From contig CAIUEV010000114.1 in NCBI GenBank assembly GCA_903898335.1, positions 1 through 11,307 of the forward strand: a stretch of 11,307 nucleotides of DNA, written 5' to 3'. The notes under the pieces were generated by a model that saw nothing but the letters and a program-made list of their open reading frames with translations, had not been told where the DNA came from and did no database searches. Made by a program: the position numbers and the translations under genes. Positions 2,438 to 11,307 of this stretch are shown piece by piece (the stretch's first letter is position 1; every line of letters begins with the position of its first letter). Source of the DNA: an uncultured bacterium (GTDB taxonomy: Bacteria; Patescibacteriota; Minisyncoccia; CAIUEV01).

Positions 2438-5083
2438 ATGGAAATGGAACAGAAAAGAAAAAGAAAAATCAGACCGAGTTTCAAACGGTTGGCTTTAGCG
2501 GCTATGTTATTTTTTTTATTGCCGATTTTTTCTCCGTTTGCTCTGGCCGATGAAGGCGTAACTCCGTCTAAAAACGGCGGGGCTTGGACGCGAAGCGCGG
2601 TGACGGCGGGCAACGAGCAGCTGATCGGTTTGACTTACAGCTTGAGAACATTGCTTTGGACGGCCGGTGTGGTTCTCGAATCCTCGGAGTTGGCCTTGAC
2701 CAGGGTGGCGGACATTACTTTTTATCAAGAAAATCCGATTGGCGGTTTCTATAAAAATCCCGACGTAGGAGCCAAATCCGGTGTGAGTAGCGAGCGGGGC
2801 GGCTGGAATATAATAAAAGAACTATGTAATTTTATTCTCATTATCATTCTTCTATTTATCGCCTTTGGGACGATTCTTCGAGTGGAGAGCTATAATTATA
2901 AATACCTATTGGTCAAGCTGGTGGTGGCAGCCTTACTTATAAATTTTAGCGGGGTAATCGCCGGTATTATTTTGGATTTCTCTCATATAATTATGGGCTC
3001 CAACATTTTTGCGGAAAAGATGACCGACATCGGGCGAATTTTACAGGAGAATTCCAAGGTTATCGAGTCTTTTCAGCAAAATGCCGACCTGAGCGACTTG
3101 CGCGGAGTCAGCGAAGAACTGGCGAAGAACAATATTACTCGAACCATTTCTCGGGTCAACGTGAATTTGATTCTTGCCTCCGTTTTGATGTTTATTCTGG
3201 GCATCACCATTCTTTCGGTTGCTCTGTTTTTGATCATTCGAACCGTTAGTCTGTGGTTTCTGTTTACTTTATCCCCATTGGCTTTTGTCTTGCATATACT
3301 TCCCCACACCAGAATTGCCAGTCTTAAATGGTGGGATGCTTTTTTGCGCAATGTTTTTTCCGGCCCGCTACTGTTCTTCTTTCTTTATTTAACTGTTTCC
3401 ATTTCCAAGAAGCTGGATATCTATTCTAACAGCGTGTTGGGGTCAAGAAATAATGAGAGCTTTATCCTGTTCTCCAGCCCCGGCAATTTCCTGGATTATC
3501 TGTTTTTGGTGGTATTGCTCTGGGTTAGTGTTTTTCTATCGCACTCTCTTTCGATAGCGGGATCAATGCAAGTGGTCGGTTATTTCAGAAACGCTTCGAG
3601 GGGAGAGGGTGGATTCAAGGTAATTTCGAAACTGATGGACTCCGGCGGTGCGGCTCTTGAGGGAACGCGAGTCGGTAAAGCGATCAATAAATGGACAGGA
3701 CCGCCATTGCAACTCAAAAGCGATTTGAAAGGTCCATTTGCGGGTGGAATGACCAGAGATATTGCGGCCGGTGGAGCCGGTGGCCCCGGCGGATTGGCTC
3801 AAGATCGAGGCAACTTTAGAACCGCTCTCAAGGAGCAATCGGCGGCGACCAGAAAAGCGTTGGAATCTTTACTTAATCCTTCGGCGGTCGGTCGAGCTAT
3901 CTCCATAGTGGAATCAAAAAGACAGGGTGTCGGTTTGGGTCAGCTGGGGGGAAATATCGATCAAATAGGCAAAGTCGCGAGCTTAAGCGTTAATGATCCT
4001 TCGGAATTTCTTAGAACTCTTTGGAAAAAATTCGAACCGTCTCAAAAGCCGACTGGCAGTTTCTGGAAGGACGCAAGAACTTTAAATGAGGAGATTAATC
4101 GTCAAATTGATTCGCAGGAGAAAGTTAGAGCCACTTTTAATGATATGGGGGTGGGCAGAGACAAAATTCAGGAATTTAAAGCTAAAGATCTTGAAGAAAG
4201 GGAGGCTCAAATATACAAGATGGCTTGGACCGGCGGTCTGGGTGATTATTTCAACAATAAATTGGGTAAAGCCTACAACAAGGAGGCCTTGGCCGGTTAC
4301 TTGAAGGGCAGCTTTGGGGAGAAAAGAGGGGCCGAGGTGGCGGAAAAATTGAAAATGATTGGTGAGACAAAGAAAGATCCCAGCCTCAATGTTACTTCCT
4401 GGAGTGAGAATAAAGGCCGCTTCGAGGTGACAGCCAAACCGCAAGAGACAACGAAAATAGAAGCCAAAGATTTGAAAAAATTGACACCGGACAGTATCAC
4501 GGAGAGGAACGAGAAAGGCCAACACGTCGGCTTCAATGAAGCGGGTAAGCAGATGCTGAAGCAAATGACGGGTGAGTATATGAAAGAAATCGAGAATATG
4601 AGAGAAGACACGAGGAAAGCTATTTCCGATGCCTTTAAAAATTCTCAAAAAGAAATTTCCAAAGAATTCGCCATCAAAATTGTTGACAACGCTCAGATGA
4701 AGGGAAGATTTAATGTTCAGGAGCTGCAAGCCCCCGGAGCGCAAATCAGCTTGGGTCAGCAATTTTTGAACAAAGTCGCCGGTCGTGCTTTTGCCTCCAA
4801 GAGAATTGATACCGGCGGAGTGGCCGTGGCCGATACTTCTGGGGTTAAAACCGCTGTGGATAAAGGAAAGAAAGAGAGAAACTTCGGCGAAAACGTTGAG
4901 AGAATAAAAAGTGAGGGTCAGAGAAGACAGGAGGAAAGGGTCTCGGGTAGAAGTTTCGCCGGCAGAAAAGATGAAGTTGACGATCTGGACTTAATCAAAC
5001 CGAATGAGAGCAAGGGGCAGGATGTGACTGGACTAAAGGATAAACAGAAGTATTTAATGTTAGGAGTTAAAAAAGATGCTTAA
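2438..5083 (+). CDS. VirB6/TrbL-like polytopic membrane protein with a long soluble C-terminal tail
   Basis: This 881-residue protein starts with a basic N-terminus and a signal-peptide-like segment (17-37, ending FALA before DEG). Hydrophobic segments follow at about 127-147, 157-182, 240-265, 268-288, 305-322 and 351-378, making six membrane helices. The segment LWFLFTLSPLAF (272-283) resembles the conserved helix of TrbL/VirB6 proteins, which form the inner-membrane platform of type IV secretion systems. Residues 386-881 form a charged tail of about 500 residues: a Gly-rich patch (442-452), then Lys/Glu-rich, probably helical sequence. That tail is much longer than classical VirB6 (about 300 residues in total), although extended VirB6 proteins are known. 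It heads a five-gene plus-strand cluster with two VirB2-like pilin-domain proteins. No VirB4 or VirD4 lies in the window. The assignment rests on topology, the SPLAF-type segment and neighbours. Met3 is an alternative start. Confidence 0.7.
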   Translation: MEMEQKRKRKIRPSFKRLALAAMLFFLLPIFSPFALADEGVTPSKNGGAWTRSAVTAGNEQLIGLTYSLRTLLWTAGVVLESSELALTRVADITFYQENPIGGFYKNPDVGAKSGVSSERGGWNIIKELCNFILIIILLFIAFGTILRVESYNYKYLLVKLVVAALLINFSGVIAGIILDFSHIIMGSNIFAEKMTDIGRILQENSKVIESFQQNADLSDLRGVSEELAKNNITRTISRVNVNLILASVLMFILGITILSVALFLIIRTVSLWFLFTLSPLAFVLHILPHTRIASLKWWDAFLRNVFSGPLLFFFLYLTVSISKKLDIYSNSVLGSRNNESFILFSSPGNFLDYLFLVVLLWVSVFLSHSLSIAGSMQVVGYFRNASRGEGGFKVISKLMDSGGAALEGTRVGKAINKWTGPPLQLKSDLKGPFAGGMTRDIAAGGAGGPGGLAQDRGNFRTALKEQSAATRKALESLLNPSAVGRAISIVESKRQGVGLGQLGGNIDQIGKVASLSVNDPSEFLRTLWKKFEPSQKPTGSFWKDARTLNEEINRQIDSQEKVRATFNDMGVGRDKIQEFKAKDLEEREAQIYKMAWTGGLGDYFNNKLGKAYNKEALAGYLKGSFGEKRGAEVAEKLKMIGETKKDPSLNVTSWSENKGRFEVTAKPQETTKIEAKDLKKLTPDSITERNEKGQHVGFNEAGKQMLKQMTGEYMKEIENMREDTRKAISDAFKNSQKEISKEFAIKIVDNAQMKGRFNVQELQAPGAQISLGQQFLNKVAGRAFASKRIDTGGVAVADTSGVKTAVDKGKKERNFGENVERIKSEGQRRQEERVSGRSFAGRKDEVDDLDLIKPNESKGQDVTGLKDKQKYLMLGVKKDA

Positions 5084-6306: not shown

Positions 6307-8721
6307 ATGATTATTAATTTAGCTCAAGCTGCGGAAAGTATTGTTAGCTGCTCCGGAAGCGATTGCGGGACTTGCTCTATTCTGGAGACGATTAGTAACT
6401 TGTACAACTTTATTCTCGGTACCGGTTTCGCAGTGGCGGTTTTAGCTCTTGTTTTGGGAGGCAGCGAATATATTTTGAGTGGCGGGAATCCTCGGTTATT
6501 CGGTAAGGCTAAGCGATTTACCCGCGCCGCCGTTTTGGGATTTGCTTTTTTGCTTTGCGGTTGGCTGATTGTTCATTCGGTGATATCGGTGACGGGCTTT
6601 AAGGGGTCTTTTTTGTGGTGGAATTTTGAATGTGTGGACGATGTGAGCTTAAATTCTCGAAACGGTTTGCCAAAAAACAGTTTTGGTGATCGAGTGAGCT
6701 TCAAGGATATAGAGAGCTTTTTAAGGAGTAAAGAGCTGTCCGGCAAAATTGAAGAAAGCTTAGACGCTGAAACAATATTGAAACAACTTTACGGACTTCA
6801 GGAGGGTCAATCTTTGGATTTTTTGGCGCCCCAGAGTCTTGGGAGCGGAGATTCGGCGGAGAAAACACTGGCTTCATTCTTGACTGTTAAAAAAGAGAAC
6901 GGAGAGATTGATTTAGAGAGTGTCGGTGATTATGCAAATGTTTTAGGGGGTAACACTTCCCTTTTGACAGAAAAGAGTGGTCTTTCCGCGGAAAATCTCG
7001 AATTGCTGAAAAAATATTTCGGTAAGAGCGGAACCGATAAGTCTTTGGTTGGAACCGACGAAGAAGTTCTTGAATCGGGAGACATGAGCCAATCGGCGGC
7101 ATTGTATTCCGCTTTGACTCAGACCCTAAAAGAAGTGAATAATTCCGGTGAGTTGGCCGGGAATGCCGATCTATTTGAAAAAAGCCCATCGGAGTTACTT
7201 GCTTTGGCGATGGAATACTCCAAGGAAAACAAGGGTCAAAGTCAAGAAGACAGATTGATCGCTACCATGTTGGCAGAGACCATTAAAATGGCCGGCGTGG
7301 TCGGGGTGGAAAAAACAGATGGTCAAAAGGAAGATGACGGATATTTAGATAACTATAATTTCAATTCAAATTTTAACGAAAATACCAATATCAATAATAA
7401 CGATAATCATAGTAACGACAACAAAGTCAAAGAGGAGAATTGTATTTCTTCGGGTGGTAGTTGGCTGACCGAGATTGGACTGGGAGAAAAAATCAATCGT
7501 TGCGGAGGACAATCCGGTAATGAGAATATTAATTCCGATTCAGCTGAAGGATATTGCCGATGCCCCGAGAGTAAATGTTTTGACGAAGAAGGGATTTGCG
7601 TGAAAGAAGGCGTTGATAGCGATGACGACGGTATTTCAAACGAAGAAGATCGTTGTCCCAAAACTCCTCCGGCGGAAAAAACGGCCATCAATAAAAACAG
7701 GGGGACGAATTACGGTTGCAGCTGTTTTGATTTGGGAAATCGAAGAAAGCAGTGTCCTCAACAAACCTGTGAAGGTGACTATATGTTGATTTATCCAACA
7801 GATAACCAAGTTTGCAAGAACGGCGCCTTTGTCGCTTACTCTTGCGGGGTGACGCGAAGAGAAGAAAATGAGTTGTGCCGAGCGGAGAACCCGGCCAATG
7901 CGAATAAAAATGATAATTCTTCCGGTAGCGGCTCCGGCAGTGGATCGGGTAATGGAAAGAACCCAATAAAGGATGATTTCTCTAAGAGCAAAGATGAGAA
8001 TTCTGTCCCTTCTGGTTCCGGAAGTGCGGGTCACGACACGGAGCGGGGAGATGGAAGTCCTGAGGCAATTAAAAAAGCCCTTAAAAGAATAGAAGAAAAA
8101 GATCCTCTTCGGTATGAGATGGTAATGAGATTTACGAAAAGTATTACCCGTACGGGTTTTGGTGGGGGTATTTGCTACGGCTGCGGAAATATTCATGTTA
8201 ATGCCACCATGCCTATTGGACAAATCGACAGTGTTATTATTCATGAGGCAACCCACTCGGGGCATGACTGTCTTTACGGCTGGGGTAGAAATTCGATTGC
8301 TGAATCAGAGAGAATTGCAGTAGCGAATCAAATAGGAAGTGTTTGCAGAGAGGAAGGTCATAAGGATATGAGTGAATTTTCAAGACAAAAAGGAGGAATT
8401 ACATATAAAGGGAAAGAAGTAAGAGGGTATCTGAGTCGCCTTCAAAGTATGGTTTCACCAAAAGGGGAGTTGGGGACTGCTGCTTTTAGTCATTGGATTA
8501 ATTATGCGCTAAGTAATCATAACGGTTCCCAAGACAGAACAAAGGGAGAGTATCATTATGGAGACGATCCGTCCGGTGTTATGCTTGGTCTTAAATCGAA
8601 TGAAGAAAGTGTTGTTAAGGGGACTATGGAAAGTCAGAGAACCTGTATCTCTAAACCAACTTCAGATTTACCAAAAGTACAGGCCTGCGAGAACGCCAAA
8701 CAAGAAATAATAATAAGATAA
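6307..8721 (+). CDS. VirB2-like pilin domain fused to a Cys-rich/TSP3 region and a C-terminal HExxH metallopeptidase domain (paralogue 1)
   Basis: Residues 1-110 of this 804-residue protein look like a VirB2/TrbC-type (T4SS_pilin) domain: a Cys motif (C15, C20, C23), helix 1 (about 36-58), a basic loop (GGNPRLFGKAKR), helix 2 (about 74-96) and C109. A helical region (about 130-335) and an Asn-rich linker (350-373) follow. Residues 379-524 hold 14 cysteines and a TSP3-like calcium site (D437, D439, D441, N445, D448, C450-P451). After a Ser/Gly linker (538-549), residues 584-804 carry HEATHSGH (646-653), E666, VRGYLSR (705-711) and YHYGD (749-753). HExxH is the zinc-binding motif of zincins: His646 and His650 would bind zinc, Glu647 act as base and Glu666 be the third ligand. 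Six C-terminal cysteines match paralogue 2. VirB2 topology puts both ends outside the cytoplasm, consistent with the cysteines. TAA just before ATG 6307 fixes the start. Protease activity is predicted only. Confidence 0.85.
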   Translation: MIINLAQAAESIVSCSGSDCGTCSILETISNLYNFILGTGFAVAVLALVLGGSEYILSGGNPRLFGKAKRFTRAAVLGFAFLLCGWLIVHSVISVTGFKGSFLWWNFECVDDVSLNSRNGLPKNSFGDRVSFKDIESFLRSKELSGKIEESLDAETILKQLYGLQEGQSLDFLAPQSLGSGDSAEKTLASFLTVKKENGEIDLESVGDYANVLGGNTSLLTEKSGLSAENLELLKKYFGKSGTDKSLVGTDEEVLESGDMSQSAALYSALTQTLKEVNNSGELAGNADLFEKSPSELLALAMEYSKENKGQSQEDRLIATMLAETIKMAGVVGVEKTDGQKEDDGYLDNYNFNSNFNENTNINNNDNHSNDNKVKEENCISSGGSWLTEIGLGEKINRCGGQSGNENINSDSAEGYCRCPESKCFDEEGICVKEGVDSDDDGISNEEDRCPKTPPAEKTAINKNRGTNYGCSCFDLGNRRKQCPQQTCEGDYMLIYPTDNQVCKNGAFVAYSCGVTRREENELCRAENPANANKNDNSSGSGSGSGSGNGKNPIKDDFSKSKDENSVPSGSGSAGHDTERGDGSPEAIKKALKRIEEKDPLRYEMVMRFTKSITRTGFGGGICYGCGNIHVNATMPIGQIDSVIIHEATHSGHDCLYGWGRNSIAESERIAVANQIGSVCREEGHKDMSEFSRQKGGITYKGKEVRGYLSRLQSMVSPKGELGTAAFSHWINYALSNHNGSQDRTKGEYHYGDDPSGVMLGLKSNEESVVKGTMESQRTCISKPTSDLPKVQACENAKQEIIIR
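7441..7878 (+). other. Cysteine-rich insert with a thrombospondin type-3-like calcium-binding repeat
   Basis: This part of paralogue 1 (residues 379-524) holds 14 cysteines in 146 residues and has no counterpart in paralogue 2. At 7615-7659 (residues 437-451) the pattern DxDxDG...NxxDxCP matches the thrombospondin type-3 repeat, an Asp-rich calcium-binding loop common in exported bacterial proteins. The density of cysteines suggests disulfide bonding outside the cytoplasm. Confidence 0.7.
7918..7956 (+). repeat. Ser-Gly linker repeat
   Basis: This short in-frame run of alternating Ser and Gly codons encodes residues 538-550 of paralogue 1. It separates the Cys-rich insert from the peptidase domain and is probably a flexible linker. 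Confidence 0.6.
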
Positions 8722-8736
8722 AAATAAGGTTTAAAT

Positions 8737-10797
8737 ATGGAGGAAGTTAAACAAATAGTCAGTTGTTCCGGGATGGATTGCGGGATTTGCTCTTTGGTGG
8801 AAACGATTAGTAATCTGTATAACAGTTTTGTTGCTGTTAGTTTTGTGGTGGCCGTTTTTGGTTTGGTGGTGGCGGGAGCTTACTTGATGCTGGCCACCGG
8901 AAGAGAGCGTATTATTGCTAAGGCCAAACTGGCCGTTAAATCGGTTATTCTGGGTTTTTCTTTTGTTTTACTGGGGTGGCTGATTGTGCATTCGGCGATT
9001 GTCGCTACCGGTGGAAAAAATGTTGGAAGTTGGTTTAGCTTTGAGTGTAAGAAAGAATATGCAGTGGCTGATTCGACGATAAAAAAGACGGAAGTTCAAA
9101 GCTTCGCTTCGTTAGCCGATTTTCTTAAGAGTGATCAGGCCAAGGGAATCATACAAAGCAATCTGTCCAACGAAGACATGTCTTTGGAAATTAAAAAGCT
9201 TCTGTCCGGAGAAAAACTGGTTTTGTCTGCACCGGCCAAGATGAATTCCAGTGTTGCCGGAGTGGATAACTTAGCGGCCCATGTTCCCTTTCTCTCGATT
9301 AGCAATAACGGCGGAAATTTAAAAATCAACGAGGAGTCATTGGATAATTTAAGACAGTATCAAGATTTAATCAGTTCCGAGGCCGAGGAGGCGGTTTCTT
9401 TAACCAATGTGAAGGGACAATCTCTGAGCGCTGGCAACAGAGAGCAGATCAGCAAAGCGATAAATCAACAGATATCTTCTCTGCTGAGTTCTATTGAGTC
9501 TGACAGCCTCGGCGGTAACTCTTTTCTTTCCTCGTCGCAGTCTCTGGTCACTTTGGATGATTTAATTTTAAAAATGCAGAATGGCAATAAAGAAGAGATA
9601 AACCGGATAGTCGATTCGCTAATCAATGTGGTAGCCAAAGAAGTCGGTAAAGAAGTTGACGGATTTCAGGCGGAAAAAGTTTTGAGTGGAAATATCGGCG
9701 AAGGAGTGGCGGAAATTCAAAGAGTGAGCGGTGATCGCTCGGAACTCTCTAATTTGATAGACCAAATAAAACCCGGCATCAATTCTGAACAAGTCTCTAC
9801 TTCCTCAAAAAACTCAAACAGCAGTATTGACATTTGGCCCGGTACGGGAAGCGGCATAAACTCAGGCATCGGCGAGGGCGTATCCTCGACCAACAAGAGT
9901 AACTCCAACAAAAACAACAGCCAAAGCAATTCAAACGGCAATACCAATAAAAGCTGGGTGCAGAATTGGAACAGCAACAATAATTCTTCACAAAAACCTC
10001 CTTATGCGAATGACAATATGTCGCAGGGTGAAAATTTTGATGGCTGGAAGGACGATAAAGAGAATGATTATGATAATAAAAACGATAATTTCAATTGCAA
10101 TTACAAACCTAACGACACCAATATTATTATGGCGATGAAGCGGATCGAATGTCGAGATCCGCTGCGTTACGAAATGATTCATCGATTTGTGCGGACAATT
10201 AAGAATACTGATTTTGGAGGCGGATTTTGCGCCGGCTGCGGAGAAATAAATGTTAATTTTGACAAGCTGCCTCTAAAAATTCTTGATCAAGTAATCATTC
10301 ATGAAGCTACCCATTCCGCTCATTTCTGTGTGGGCATGTCCGAGCCAATTGCGGAGGTGGAACGTATCGCCTGTGGCAATCAAATGGGTAGTCTGAACAG
10401 AGACGGTTGCGACAAGCACGAAGGGGAGAAGAAAAATTTTATGATGCGAGAATTTGAACGCCAAGGCAAAGAAATTATGTATAAAGGGATTCCGGTGCGC
10501 GGCTATTTGAGCCGTTGGCAAAACAAAGTATCTCCTCTGGGTGATTTGACAGCCACTTCTTTTGACTGGCCGATTCAATATGCTTTGGGCTATGGGGACG
10601 CAACTTACGGTCCGTATCATTACGGTGATCATGAGGCGCAGAAAAATCTTGGACTAAAGAAAAACGAGGAGAGTATTGTTGAAAAAATTATGGAAAGTCG
10701 CCAACCCTGTTTTGCCAAATCAATGGAGGGCTTACCTAAGGCGGGAGAATGCGAAAAGACGGGCGGAGGACCGATTAAAATTGATTACAGTAAATAA
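8737..10797 (+). CDS. VirB2-like pilin domain fused to a C-terminal HExxH metallopeptidase domain (paralogue 2)
   Basis: This 686-residue tandem paralogue begins 15 bases after the stop of paralogue 1, with a possible weak AAGG ribosome site 7 bases before the ATG. Residues 1-105 repeat the pilin-like domain: Cys motif C10, C15, C18, helices at about 31-53 and 68-90, and C104. A helical region (about 118-345) follows, then a long Asn/Ser/Gly-rich linker (about 355-455). The C-terminal domain (460-686) has C498-x-x-C501, HEATHSAH (522-529), E540, VRGYLSR (587-593), YHYGD (627-631) and cysteines 531, 558, 658 and 672, all matching paralogue 1. The Cys-rich TSP3 insert is absent. HExxH, a downstream Glu and an extracytoplasmic position suggest a gluzincin-like surface peptidase tethered through a pilin-like anchor; family and substrate are not recognised. 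It is the last gene of the cluster. Confidence 0.85.
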   Translation: MEEVKQIVSCSGMDCGICSLVETISNLYNSFVAVSFVVAVFGLVVAGAYLMLATGRERIIAKAKLAVKSVILGFSFVLLGWLIVHSAIVATGGKNVGSWFSFECKKEYAVADSTIKKTEVQSFASLADFLKSDQAKGIIQSNLSNEDMSLEIKKLLSGEKLVLSAPAKMNSSVAGVDNLAAHVPFLSISNNGGNLKINEESLDNLRQYQDLISSEAEEAVSLTNVKGQSLSAGNREQISKAINQQISSLLSSIESDSLGGNSFLSSSQSLVTLDDLILKMQNGNKEEINRIVDSLINVVAKEVGKEVDGFQAEKVLSGNIGEGVAEIQRVSGDRSELSNLIDQIKPGINSEQVSTSSKNSNSSIDIWPGTGSGINSGIGEGVSSTNKSNSNKNNSQSNSNGNTNKSWVQNWNSNNNSSQKPPYANDNMSQGENFDGWKDDKENDYDNKNDNFNCNYKPNDTNIIMAMKRIECRDPLRYEMIHRFVRTIKNTDFGGGFCAGCGEINVNFDKLPLKILDQVIIHEATHSAHFCVGMSEPIAEVERIACGNQMGSLNRDGCDKHEGEKKNFMMREFERQGKEIMYKGIPVRGYLSRWQNKVSPLGDLTATSFDWPIQYALGYGDATYGPYHYGDHEAQKNLGLKKNEESIVEKIMESRQPCFAKSMEGLPKAGECEKTGGGPIKIDYSK
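9880..10020 (+). repeat. Low-complexity Asn/Ser-coding tract
   Basis: An AAY/AGY-rich stretch inside paralogue 2 encodes an Asn/Ser/Lys/Gln linker (about residues 382-428) between the helical region and the peptidase domain. It is compositionally like the Asn/Ser tract at the end of the visible LCP protein and the Asn-rich linker of paralogue 1. Such tracts are prone to length variation between strains. Confidence 0.5.
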
Positions 10798-10940: not shown

Positions 10941-11307
10941 TCATTGCTCTCCGAGCTCTTCTTTGATCTTGCCGAAGGCGTGCCAGTTGAAAACGGTTTC
11001 GGTGGTTTGAATCGGTTCAATGTTGATTTTGAAGCTGGTCGTTGTGACATCAGAAACATAATATTTGGTGAGCAAGTTGCTGCTGGCGGGGGTCAGGGTG
11101 ACAATTGGCGGTTCGGCATATTCATTCTCAAAGCTGATAACAATATTTTCGGTATTGGCGATGATAGTCGCTTGCCCAACCGAATCCCGGCTCAACTCAA
11201 TCGGTTTTTCAAACTTGGCCACTCCACTGAAAGTCACTTCTCCCAAGAACACAACGGCCTTTTCAAAAGTAGCCTCCATTGAGAACCAGACTTCTTTGAA
11301 GAAGCCA
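10941..11307 (-). CDS. C-terminal part of a beta-rich, probably surface-exposed protein (N-terminus beyond the window)
   Basis: The minus-strand frame ends in TGA at 10943-10941 and stays open to the right edge. The ATG at 11279 is therefore probably internal: the frame continues upstream with FFKEVWFS. At least 121 residues are visible. The first part shows Phe at regular spacing of about six (FEKAVVFLGEVTFSGVAKF), as in short beta-strand repeats or solenoids. The rest is a beta-rich end with SFENEYAEPPIVTLTPAS and FNWHAFG, resembling the C-terminal domains of large exported proteins annotated in Patescibacteria; I know of no defined function. It converges on the pilin-peptidase operon. Overlapping frames on both strands are open too, but this one is chosen for its strand-like pattern and open edge. 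Confidence 0.6.
   Translation of the reverse strand, partial: GFFKEVWFSMEATFEKAVVFLGEVTFSGVAKFEKPIELSRDSVGQATIIANTENIVISFENEYAEPPIVTLTPASSNLLTKYYVSDVTTTSFKINIEPIQTTETVFNWHAFGKIKEELGEQ

Follow-up and report, generated by a model that had tools for sequence, protein, structure and literature searches.

Tandem Fusion Genes on a Patescibacterial Contig

The forward strand of contig CAIUEV010000114.1 (assembly GCA_903898335.1), from an uncultured bacterium of Patescibacteriota (Minisyncoccia; CAIUEV01), was analyzed over its full length of 11,307 nucleotides, and this stretch is designated here as the window. It corresponds to contig C114 of a genome of 961 kb in 148 contigs. Two adjacent genes in the window encode proteins in which a two-helix module of the T4SS_pilin family (T4SS, type IV secretion system) is joined to a C-terminal zincin-like domain. 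They are designated as proteins 1 and 2, the pilin-type module as the anchor, and the C-terminal domain as the head (Table 1). The original prediction, made from the sequence of the window, had placed a pilin-type domain and a HEATHSGH-containing domain on one polypeptide. This was borne out, and the open reading frame (ORF) of protein 1 is larger than the interval assigned to it at that time. The ORF of protein 2 begins after a gap of 15 bases 3′ of the protein 1 ORF.

Table 1. Features of the window related to the two pilin-anchored proteins.
Feature	Position	Strand	Description
Fusion protein 1	6307..8721	+	804 amino acids (aa): pilin-type anchor, stalk, Cys-rich region, Gly/Ser/Asn-rich linker, zincin-like head
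T4SS_pilin (PF18895) module, protein 1	6376..6573	+	Residues 24-89; two helices with a basic loop between them
Cys-rich region, protein 1	7390..7878	+	~Residues 362-524; sub-threshold TSP3-like stretch
Zincin-like head, protein 1	8056..8721	+	Residues 584-804 (last 221); HEATH 646-650, invariant E668
Putative metal site, H646-E647-x-T649-H650 to E668, protein 1	8242..8310	+	Invariant in 20/20 heads; metal binding predicted
Fusion protein 2	8737..10797	+	Paralogue of 686 aa sharing the anchor and head of protein 1; HEATH 522-526
T4SS_pilin module, protein 2	8791..8988	+	PF18895 match
Zincin-like head, protein 2	10111..10797	+	~52-55% identity to the head of protein 1
Polytopic protein, possibly TrbL/VirB6-like	2438..5083	+	881 aa; weak PF04610 matches in same-position genes of two relatives

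The T4SS_pilin profile, suggested earlier as a check on the N-terminus of protein 1, gave scores above the curated Pfam cut-off of 26.6 bits for protein 1 (27.6 bits) and protein 2 (30.4 bits), and both proteins thus belong to this family by profile score. In protein 1, the module is flanked by CxxxxCxxC on its N-terminal side and WWxxxC on its C-terminal side. A VirB2-type pilus subunit is a short protein of ~100 residues. The window proteins share the two-helix module with the VirB2-like pilins of Patescibacteria (PF18895, PF04956), but they are ~7-8 times longer than a 100-residue pilin, have extra cysteines at both membrane boundaries, and carry a conserved C-terminal head. They do not have the length of a pilus subunit, and their own length is kept in relatives.

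In both window proteins, the loop that connects the two hydrophobic helices carries a net charge of +4, and the flanks of 25 residues are negatively charged or have no net charge. Positively charged loops stay on the cytoplasmic side of the membrane (the positive-inside rule), so both ends of the anchor are predicted to lie outside. The cysteines and the TSP3-like stretch would fit an extracellular stalk.

Zincin-Like Head

The motif HEATHSGH occupies residues 646-653 of protein 1. By composition, the expected number of HExxH motifs arising by chance is ~0.013 in the ORF of protein 1 and ~0.008 in that of protein 2, and one copy was found in each. In the alignment of 20 heads, H646, E647, T649, and H650 are invariant, as are E668, located 18 residues after the second motif His, and A671, E690, R711, and Y733. 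A conserved HExxH with a downstream Glu, the sequence pattern of gluzincins, is therefore present in 20/20 heads. The Glu 16 residues after the second His (E666), named in the original prediction, falls outside the conserved columns; the invariant acidic residue is E668 instead. The six cysteines described as conserved need correction too: five are mostly conserved (C623 in 14/20, C626 and C655 in 18/20, C780 in 19/20, and C794 in 15/20), while C680 is present in only 6/20. Homologues lacking HExxH, which would have refuted the proposed metallopeptidase, were not seen among the 20 aligned heads, and the 12 proteins from the database search retain the motif as well.

The head structure was predicted with a pLDDT (predicted local distance difference test score) of 92.9. 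Both motif His residues are on a single predicted helix (head residues 54-74) and the Glu is on the following helix (81-93). Structural neighbours are weak and mainly of zincin type, and none reaches a Foldseek e-value of 0.001. The highest Z scores were obtained for the HExxH domain of ChlB (8.9) and SjiH (7.2), both alpha-ketoglutarate HExxH oxygenases, followed by the peptidases or peptidase-like proteins Wss1 (5.0), M32 (4.9), IrrE (4.6), selecase (3.5), and thermolysin (3.0). The comparison with zincin folds proposed earlier thus yielded a confident model with mainly zincin-type neighbours, but the matches are weak and an oxygenase ranks first. The window heads show no significant sequence match to gluzincins (M32, IrrE, selecase, thermolysin) or Wss1-type zincins, from which they also differ in the invariant E690, R711, and Y733 and the conserved cysteines. 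The sequence search of the PDB with the window heads returned a single row with the e-value 0.17. The head of one homologue (P0010) matched Pfam DUF6782, "putative metallopeptidase", with 18.2 bits, below the cut-off of 27. From motif, conservation, and predicted fold, the window heads look like putative gluzincin-type zinc metallopeptidases, in which zinc binding and catalysis would involve the HExxH motif and E668.

Distribution of the Zincin Fusion

The zincin head is restricted to a single family. Among nine genomes of the order, it was found in the genome of the window and in three others of the same family (G001, G002, and G003), with two heads in each, and in none of the five genomes of another family. 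The recurrence of the fusion in related genomes, raised as a question with the original prediction, was thus confirmed in 4/4 genomes of the family. When 383 genomes of the class were searched, the head profile matched strongly in these four, and two weaker matches were seen elsewhere. A second sample, of 379 genomes from the phylum, gave a strong match only for the genome of the window, together with one weaker match. The matches outside the family are in G077 (e-value 1.6e-5), G183 (0.0084), and G619 (4.5e-4), and correspond to frames of 182, 133, and 194 aa, respectively, all without the anchor. Judged by eye, those of G183 and G619 look like another small metallopeptidase family. The G077 protein (L023:4337-4885), with the motif HESFH, could be a free-standing distant relative of the head.

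The protein database search yielded 12 zincin proteins, including the two of the window, and the database itself annotates T4SS_pilin for three of them. In the alignment of the 12 proteins, 11 start before the first pilin helix; P0006 starts inside the second and is perhaps the product of a truncated gene. A profile search restricted to head-sized proteins gave three matches, all on contigs of 1801 bases or shorter, and they are therefore probably gene fragments. No relative was found in the scan of viral contigs. Two relatives are labelled as Candidatus Moranbacteria (P0005) and Candidatus Moraniibacteriota (L053), the latter being a phylum within the Parcubacteria group of Patescibacteria. 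Moranbacteria belong to Paceibacteria.

In the tree of heads, protein 1 is grouped with P0003 and P0004 (support 83/83) and protein 2 with P0009 (100/100). On this topology, a recent tandem duplication of the window pair was rejected. Judging from the head sequences, the two paralogues are old lineages.

The Same Anchor with Other Heads

The genome of the window was studied through searches and fetched regions. Its 18 T4SS_pilin matches fall on 16 proteins, of which eight are long (352-810 aa) and the other eight short (94-227 aa). All eight long proteins have CxxxxCxxC ahead of the first helix, and seven of them have W[WF]xxxC behind the second; neither motif occurs in any of the short ones. 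The fusions are spread over seven contigs.

The relationships among these proteins were analyzed with BLAST in a set of 22 proteins, and the e-values apply to that small set. The first 190-310 residues of protein 1 matched the sibling proteins C40 (1.6e-25), C25 (4.8e-20), C15 (4.3e-20), and C143 (1.1e-19). The Cys-rich region separately matched C40 and C15 with ~2e-10 each; it is thus common to the VanY-headed paralogue and to paralogues whose head lacks a family match. For the head of protein 1, the sole significant match was its tandem paralogue.

Two siblings have an SLT head: C25, with 42.9 bits against the cut-off of 21.3, and C49, with 20.2 bits in hmmscan, just below this cut-off, and 23.4 bits, above it, in the genome search. 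The C-terminus of C40 matched VanY (31.0 bits) and M15 (31.2 bits), both above cut-off; its anchor was assigned through the BLAST match to protein 1. Two siblings (C143 and C15) have heads without a family match, and no head was recognized in the short sibling C12. Since anchor and stalk are the same and the C-termini differ, the zincin represents one of several heads borne by a shared carrier. The zincin pair belongs to a wider set of anchored enzymes, which the original prediction had missed. Another frame of the genome, of 282 aa, matches VanY without being among the pilin-module frames, and thus not every hydrolase is anchored. Neither window protein has an SLT or CHAP-type domain, the hallmark of VirB1, in contrast to the SLT-headed siblings.

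A C-terminal head with a conserved S-x-G-C motif was observed on the same anchor at L044:926-3265, L045:3114-5417, and L074:1531-3813. Searches of Pfam, NCBIfam, PHROGs, and PDB did not assign it to a family. The short motif, in the head shared by C143, C15, and L074, is reminiscent of L,D-transpeptidases, a likeness that no library supports.

Genomic Neighbourhood and Relation to Type IV Secretion

In the genome of the window, the pilin-SLT gene of C25 and a virB4 gene (359.8 bits; cut-off 325) are separated by one gene encoding a 214 aa protein, and virB4 comes after a gene that matches TrsD and VirB4 weakly. The same order of pilin-SLT and virB4 genes was seen in G001 and G002, where a virB4 fragment lies at the edge of the fetched region; that of G003 ends short of the corresponding position. 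These SLT-headed siblings (C25 and those of G001, G002, and G003) have an extra, signal-peptide-like hydrophobic segment at the N-terminus. The loops of their anchors are near neutral (0 or +1), and the charge argument for topology is therefore weak for them.

The zincin fusions themselves lie in a conserved gene order: a membrane protein of 870-904 aa, a family-2 glycosyltransferase, a small AtpI-like gene, and the zincin fusion. The window, G003, and one of the two G001 loci retain this arrangement from membrane protein to zincin. A possibly VirB6-like gene is located upstream of a zincin fusion in 3/4 genomes of the family. The assignment to VirB6/TrbL is based on PF04610 (TrbL) scores of the positional counterparts in G001 (18.5 bits) and G003 (19.4 bits), below the cut-off of 25.9, and on several hydrophobic segments in the membrane protein; no PF04610 match was found in the window's own 881 aa protein. 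In G002, both zincin fusions are a few kb from two VirD4/TraD-like ATPases (PF10412, above cut-off).

Several other ORFs adjoin the zincin fusions. Directly after the fusion in G001, two genes (L020:10739-14056 and L020:14095-15915) encode very long proteins (1105 and 606 aa), each with a pilin module that scores below the threshold. Small ORFs with no Pfam match are located between the tandem zincin paralogues of G003 (L019:6902-7363) and G002 (L022:11783-12148). In the window, an ORF on the minus strand (10941-11306), open at the contig edge, has an H-type lectin match of 23.9 bits against the cut-off of 24.

Survey of Pilin-Module Fusions

Fusions beyond the genome of the window were surveyed in a non-random set of 25 frames: 22 other frames of at least 400 aa among the class-level matches listed, and three hand-picked shorter ones. 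The module is near the N-terminus in 14 of them, all of which were scanned; six of the other 11 were also scanned, giving 20 in total. Among the 14 N-terminal-anchor fusions, seven have a wall hydrolase above cut-off (SLT in five, VanY in one, M23 in one), one has LamG, one has an Ig-like domain, and five show nothing above cut-off except the pilin module. The hydrolase share is 5/6 in the window's family and 2/8 in other families, the latter represented by M23 in G015 and SLT in G012. In the six fusions from the other genomes of the family, CxxxxCxxC is present in 4/6 and W[WF]xxxC in 6/6; this Cys signature is found in 0/8 fusions of other families.

Starting from SLT (PF01464), 20 matches were recognized in 15 of 37 genomes. 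Within the four genomes of the family, 6/7 are on pilin-anchored proteins, several loci that were cut at or before the module being judged from longer loci. Outside the family, 4/13 have the module according to a model partly trained on the same proteins (G012 in the training set; G036, G020, and G034 outside it), with one locus (L096) that has no usable frame scored as lacking the module. G036 (26.0 bits), G020 (18.2), and G034 (22.6) represent three further families combining SLT and the pilin module, all below the Pfam cut-off of 26.6.

Two adjacent genes of G012 (L076:1673-2815 and L076:2787-3725), which are among the hand-picked frames, share 427 identical anchor bases (125 identical residues) and then diverge into different heads, one of them SLT. 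If not an assembly error, the pair represents a recent head swap. Another protein, L057:2554-4683 of G015, combines the pilin module, an Ig-like domain, and an HEFSH motif and resembles M64 weakly (17.0 bits against a cut-off of 26); it may be a pilin-metallopeptidase fusion that arose independently in another family. Long proteins with the module at the C-terminus were observed at L058, L060, L062, L064, L067, and L072. Six frames with a C-terminal module were scanned; one has PKD and one has fn3 domains, and both are adhesin-like.

Discussion

It is moderately likely that the window pair are members of a swappable set of pilin-anchored extracytoplasmic hydrolases that serve the T4SS of Patescibacteria. 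The VirB2-type two-helix module would be inserted in the cytoplasmic membrane with both ends outside and the basic loop inside, and the Cys-rich stalk and flexible linker would hold a gluzincin-type zinc metallopeptidase outside this membrane. One anchor and stalk could bear interchangeable heads: a lytic transglycosylase, a D,D-carboxypeptidase, the zincin, or the head without a family match. Through pilin-type contacts, the anchor may park these heads at the VirB4/VirB6 platform, where a head would open the envelope locally, the whole acting like VirB1 but tethered and with several enzymes. The barrier cut by the zincin would be made of peptide or protein (peptidoglycan peptides or a protein of the surface) and would belong either to its own cell or to a cell to which that cell is attached. 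To our knowledge, HExxH is rare among wall hydrolases, and for this reason we lean slightly to a protein as the substrate.

This rarity is also a point against a wall-opening role, and it is joined by several others. The window heads have no family match in Pfam, NCBIfam, PHROGs, or PDB sequence searches, and their enzyme class thus rests on motif, conservation, and fold; the best structural neighbour is an alpha-ketoglutarate oxygenase and not a peptidase. The pilin module scores above the Pfam cut-off in just 3/12 zincin proteins (9/12 have an e-value of 0.01 or better), it is below cut-off in C40 (19.3 bits), and the fold comparison of the anchor was uninformative. Half of the surveyed N-terminal-anchor fusions (7/14) lack a recognized wall hydrolase. 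As for the secretion system, no virB4 was found among the part of the ORFs searched in the window and the fetched neighbourhoods of zincin fusions. The VirB6-like assignment is sub-threshold, and the gene is absent from the fetched stretch at one G001 locus and in G002. VirD4-like genes are frequent in Patescibacteria and mostly distant from virB4 (PMC12102498), and their presence near the fusions therefore says little.

A true minor pilin, built into a VirB2-type pilus with the protease displayed along the pilus or at its tip, is in line with the score of the module above the T4SS_pilin threshold; the eight short pilin-like proteins of the genome could form the shaft, and in one Saccharibacterium the pilin genes within the T4SS cluster are reportedly essential (PMC12857230, PMC10633639). 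We regard it as unlikely, as the Cys signature separates the long proteins (8/8) from the short pilins (0/8), the recognized sibling heads target the cell wall, and an extension of several hundred residues would be hard to pack unless the subunit were rare. The original prediction had left two options, a protease displayed on a pilus and a pilin-like anchor reused at a secretion channel. The second is favoured over the first because of the Cys-marked long subset, the wall-hydrolase heads of the siblings, and the one sibling near virB4. Reuse as a generic membrane anchor is a separate matter: a hairpin with no remaining link to T4SS might tether secreted enzymes and adhesins alike. The module is indeed also placed at C-termini or combined with LamG, Ig-like, PKD, and fn3 domains, the fusions of the genome are on seven contigs, and the Cys signature does not extend to fusions of other families (0/8). 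A generic anchor is nevertheless improbable in view of the SLT-headed sibling near virB4 in 3/4 genomes of the family, the fourth having been fetched too short, and of the possibly VirB6-like gene beside the zincin fusion, also in 3/4 genomes.

The remaining alternative concerns the head, which might be an iron/alpha-ketoglutarate HExxH oxygenase, as its top structural neighbours are, or an inactive zincin used for binding. Enzymes of the ChlB type modify peptides in pathways for ribosomally synthesized and post-translationally modified peptides (PMC12636437), whereas the window head is in a Cys-rich, probably extracytoplasmic context. According to the predicted topology, the head is extracellular, and the co-substrate of an oxygenase would not be expected there; the lower-ranked structural neighbours are peptidases or peptidase-like. 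Against an inactive zincin, HExTH and E668 are fully retained. Both forms of this alternative are thus considered very unlikely, and a set of pilin-anchored hydrolases serving T4SS is the preferred reading.

The VirB1-type hydrolases of Gram-positive T4SS, such as PrgK, TraG of pIP501, and Orf14 of Tn916, are membrane-anchored proteins with extracellular domains acting on peptidoglycan (PMC12857230). The SLT-headed siblings resemble them in domain and gene position. The Gram-positive proteins, however, have SLT, CHAP, MUR, or LytM domains (PMC12857230), while here the anchor is T4SS_pilin and the window heads are HExxH zincin-like domains. T4SS was essential for epibiotic growth in the single Patescibacterium tested (PMC12102498, PMC12857230). 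In a 2025 survey of 3,035 genomes, pilin arrays were widespread and VirB1 homologues were few; outside Paceibacteria, VirB1 showed no high degree of association with VirB4, most VirB2-bearing genomes lacked VirB1, and the putative pilus was inferred to be independent of VirB1 (PMC12102498). A pilin-hydrolase fusion is not reported in the sections of this survey that were consulted (PMC12102498), and no report of such fusions was found in the open-licence literature. We propose that what is new here is the combination of a VirB2-like anchor with a function like that of VirB1 and a zincin-type head that has no assigned family. Given the position of Moranbacteria mentioned above, pilin-SLT genes near virB4 may have been counted as VirB1 with their anchor unremarked.

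In a broader and rather doubtful extension, the T4SS of ultrasmall bacteria would be a tool rack, in which VirB2-like subunits, each with a different head (a wall- or protein-cutting enzyme or an adhesin), are assembled at or on the secretion apparatus and breach the envelope of a partner cell, the heads are swapped on a common pilin anchor, and the zincin is a family-specific one. Should fusion of wall hydrolases to pilin-like anchors prove common, surveys that score pilins and VirB1 as separate items could get both counts wrong. The finding offers a testable idea, with named genes, of how these cells may open an envelope.

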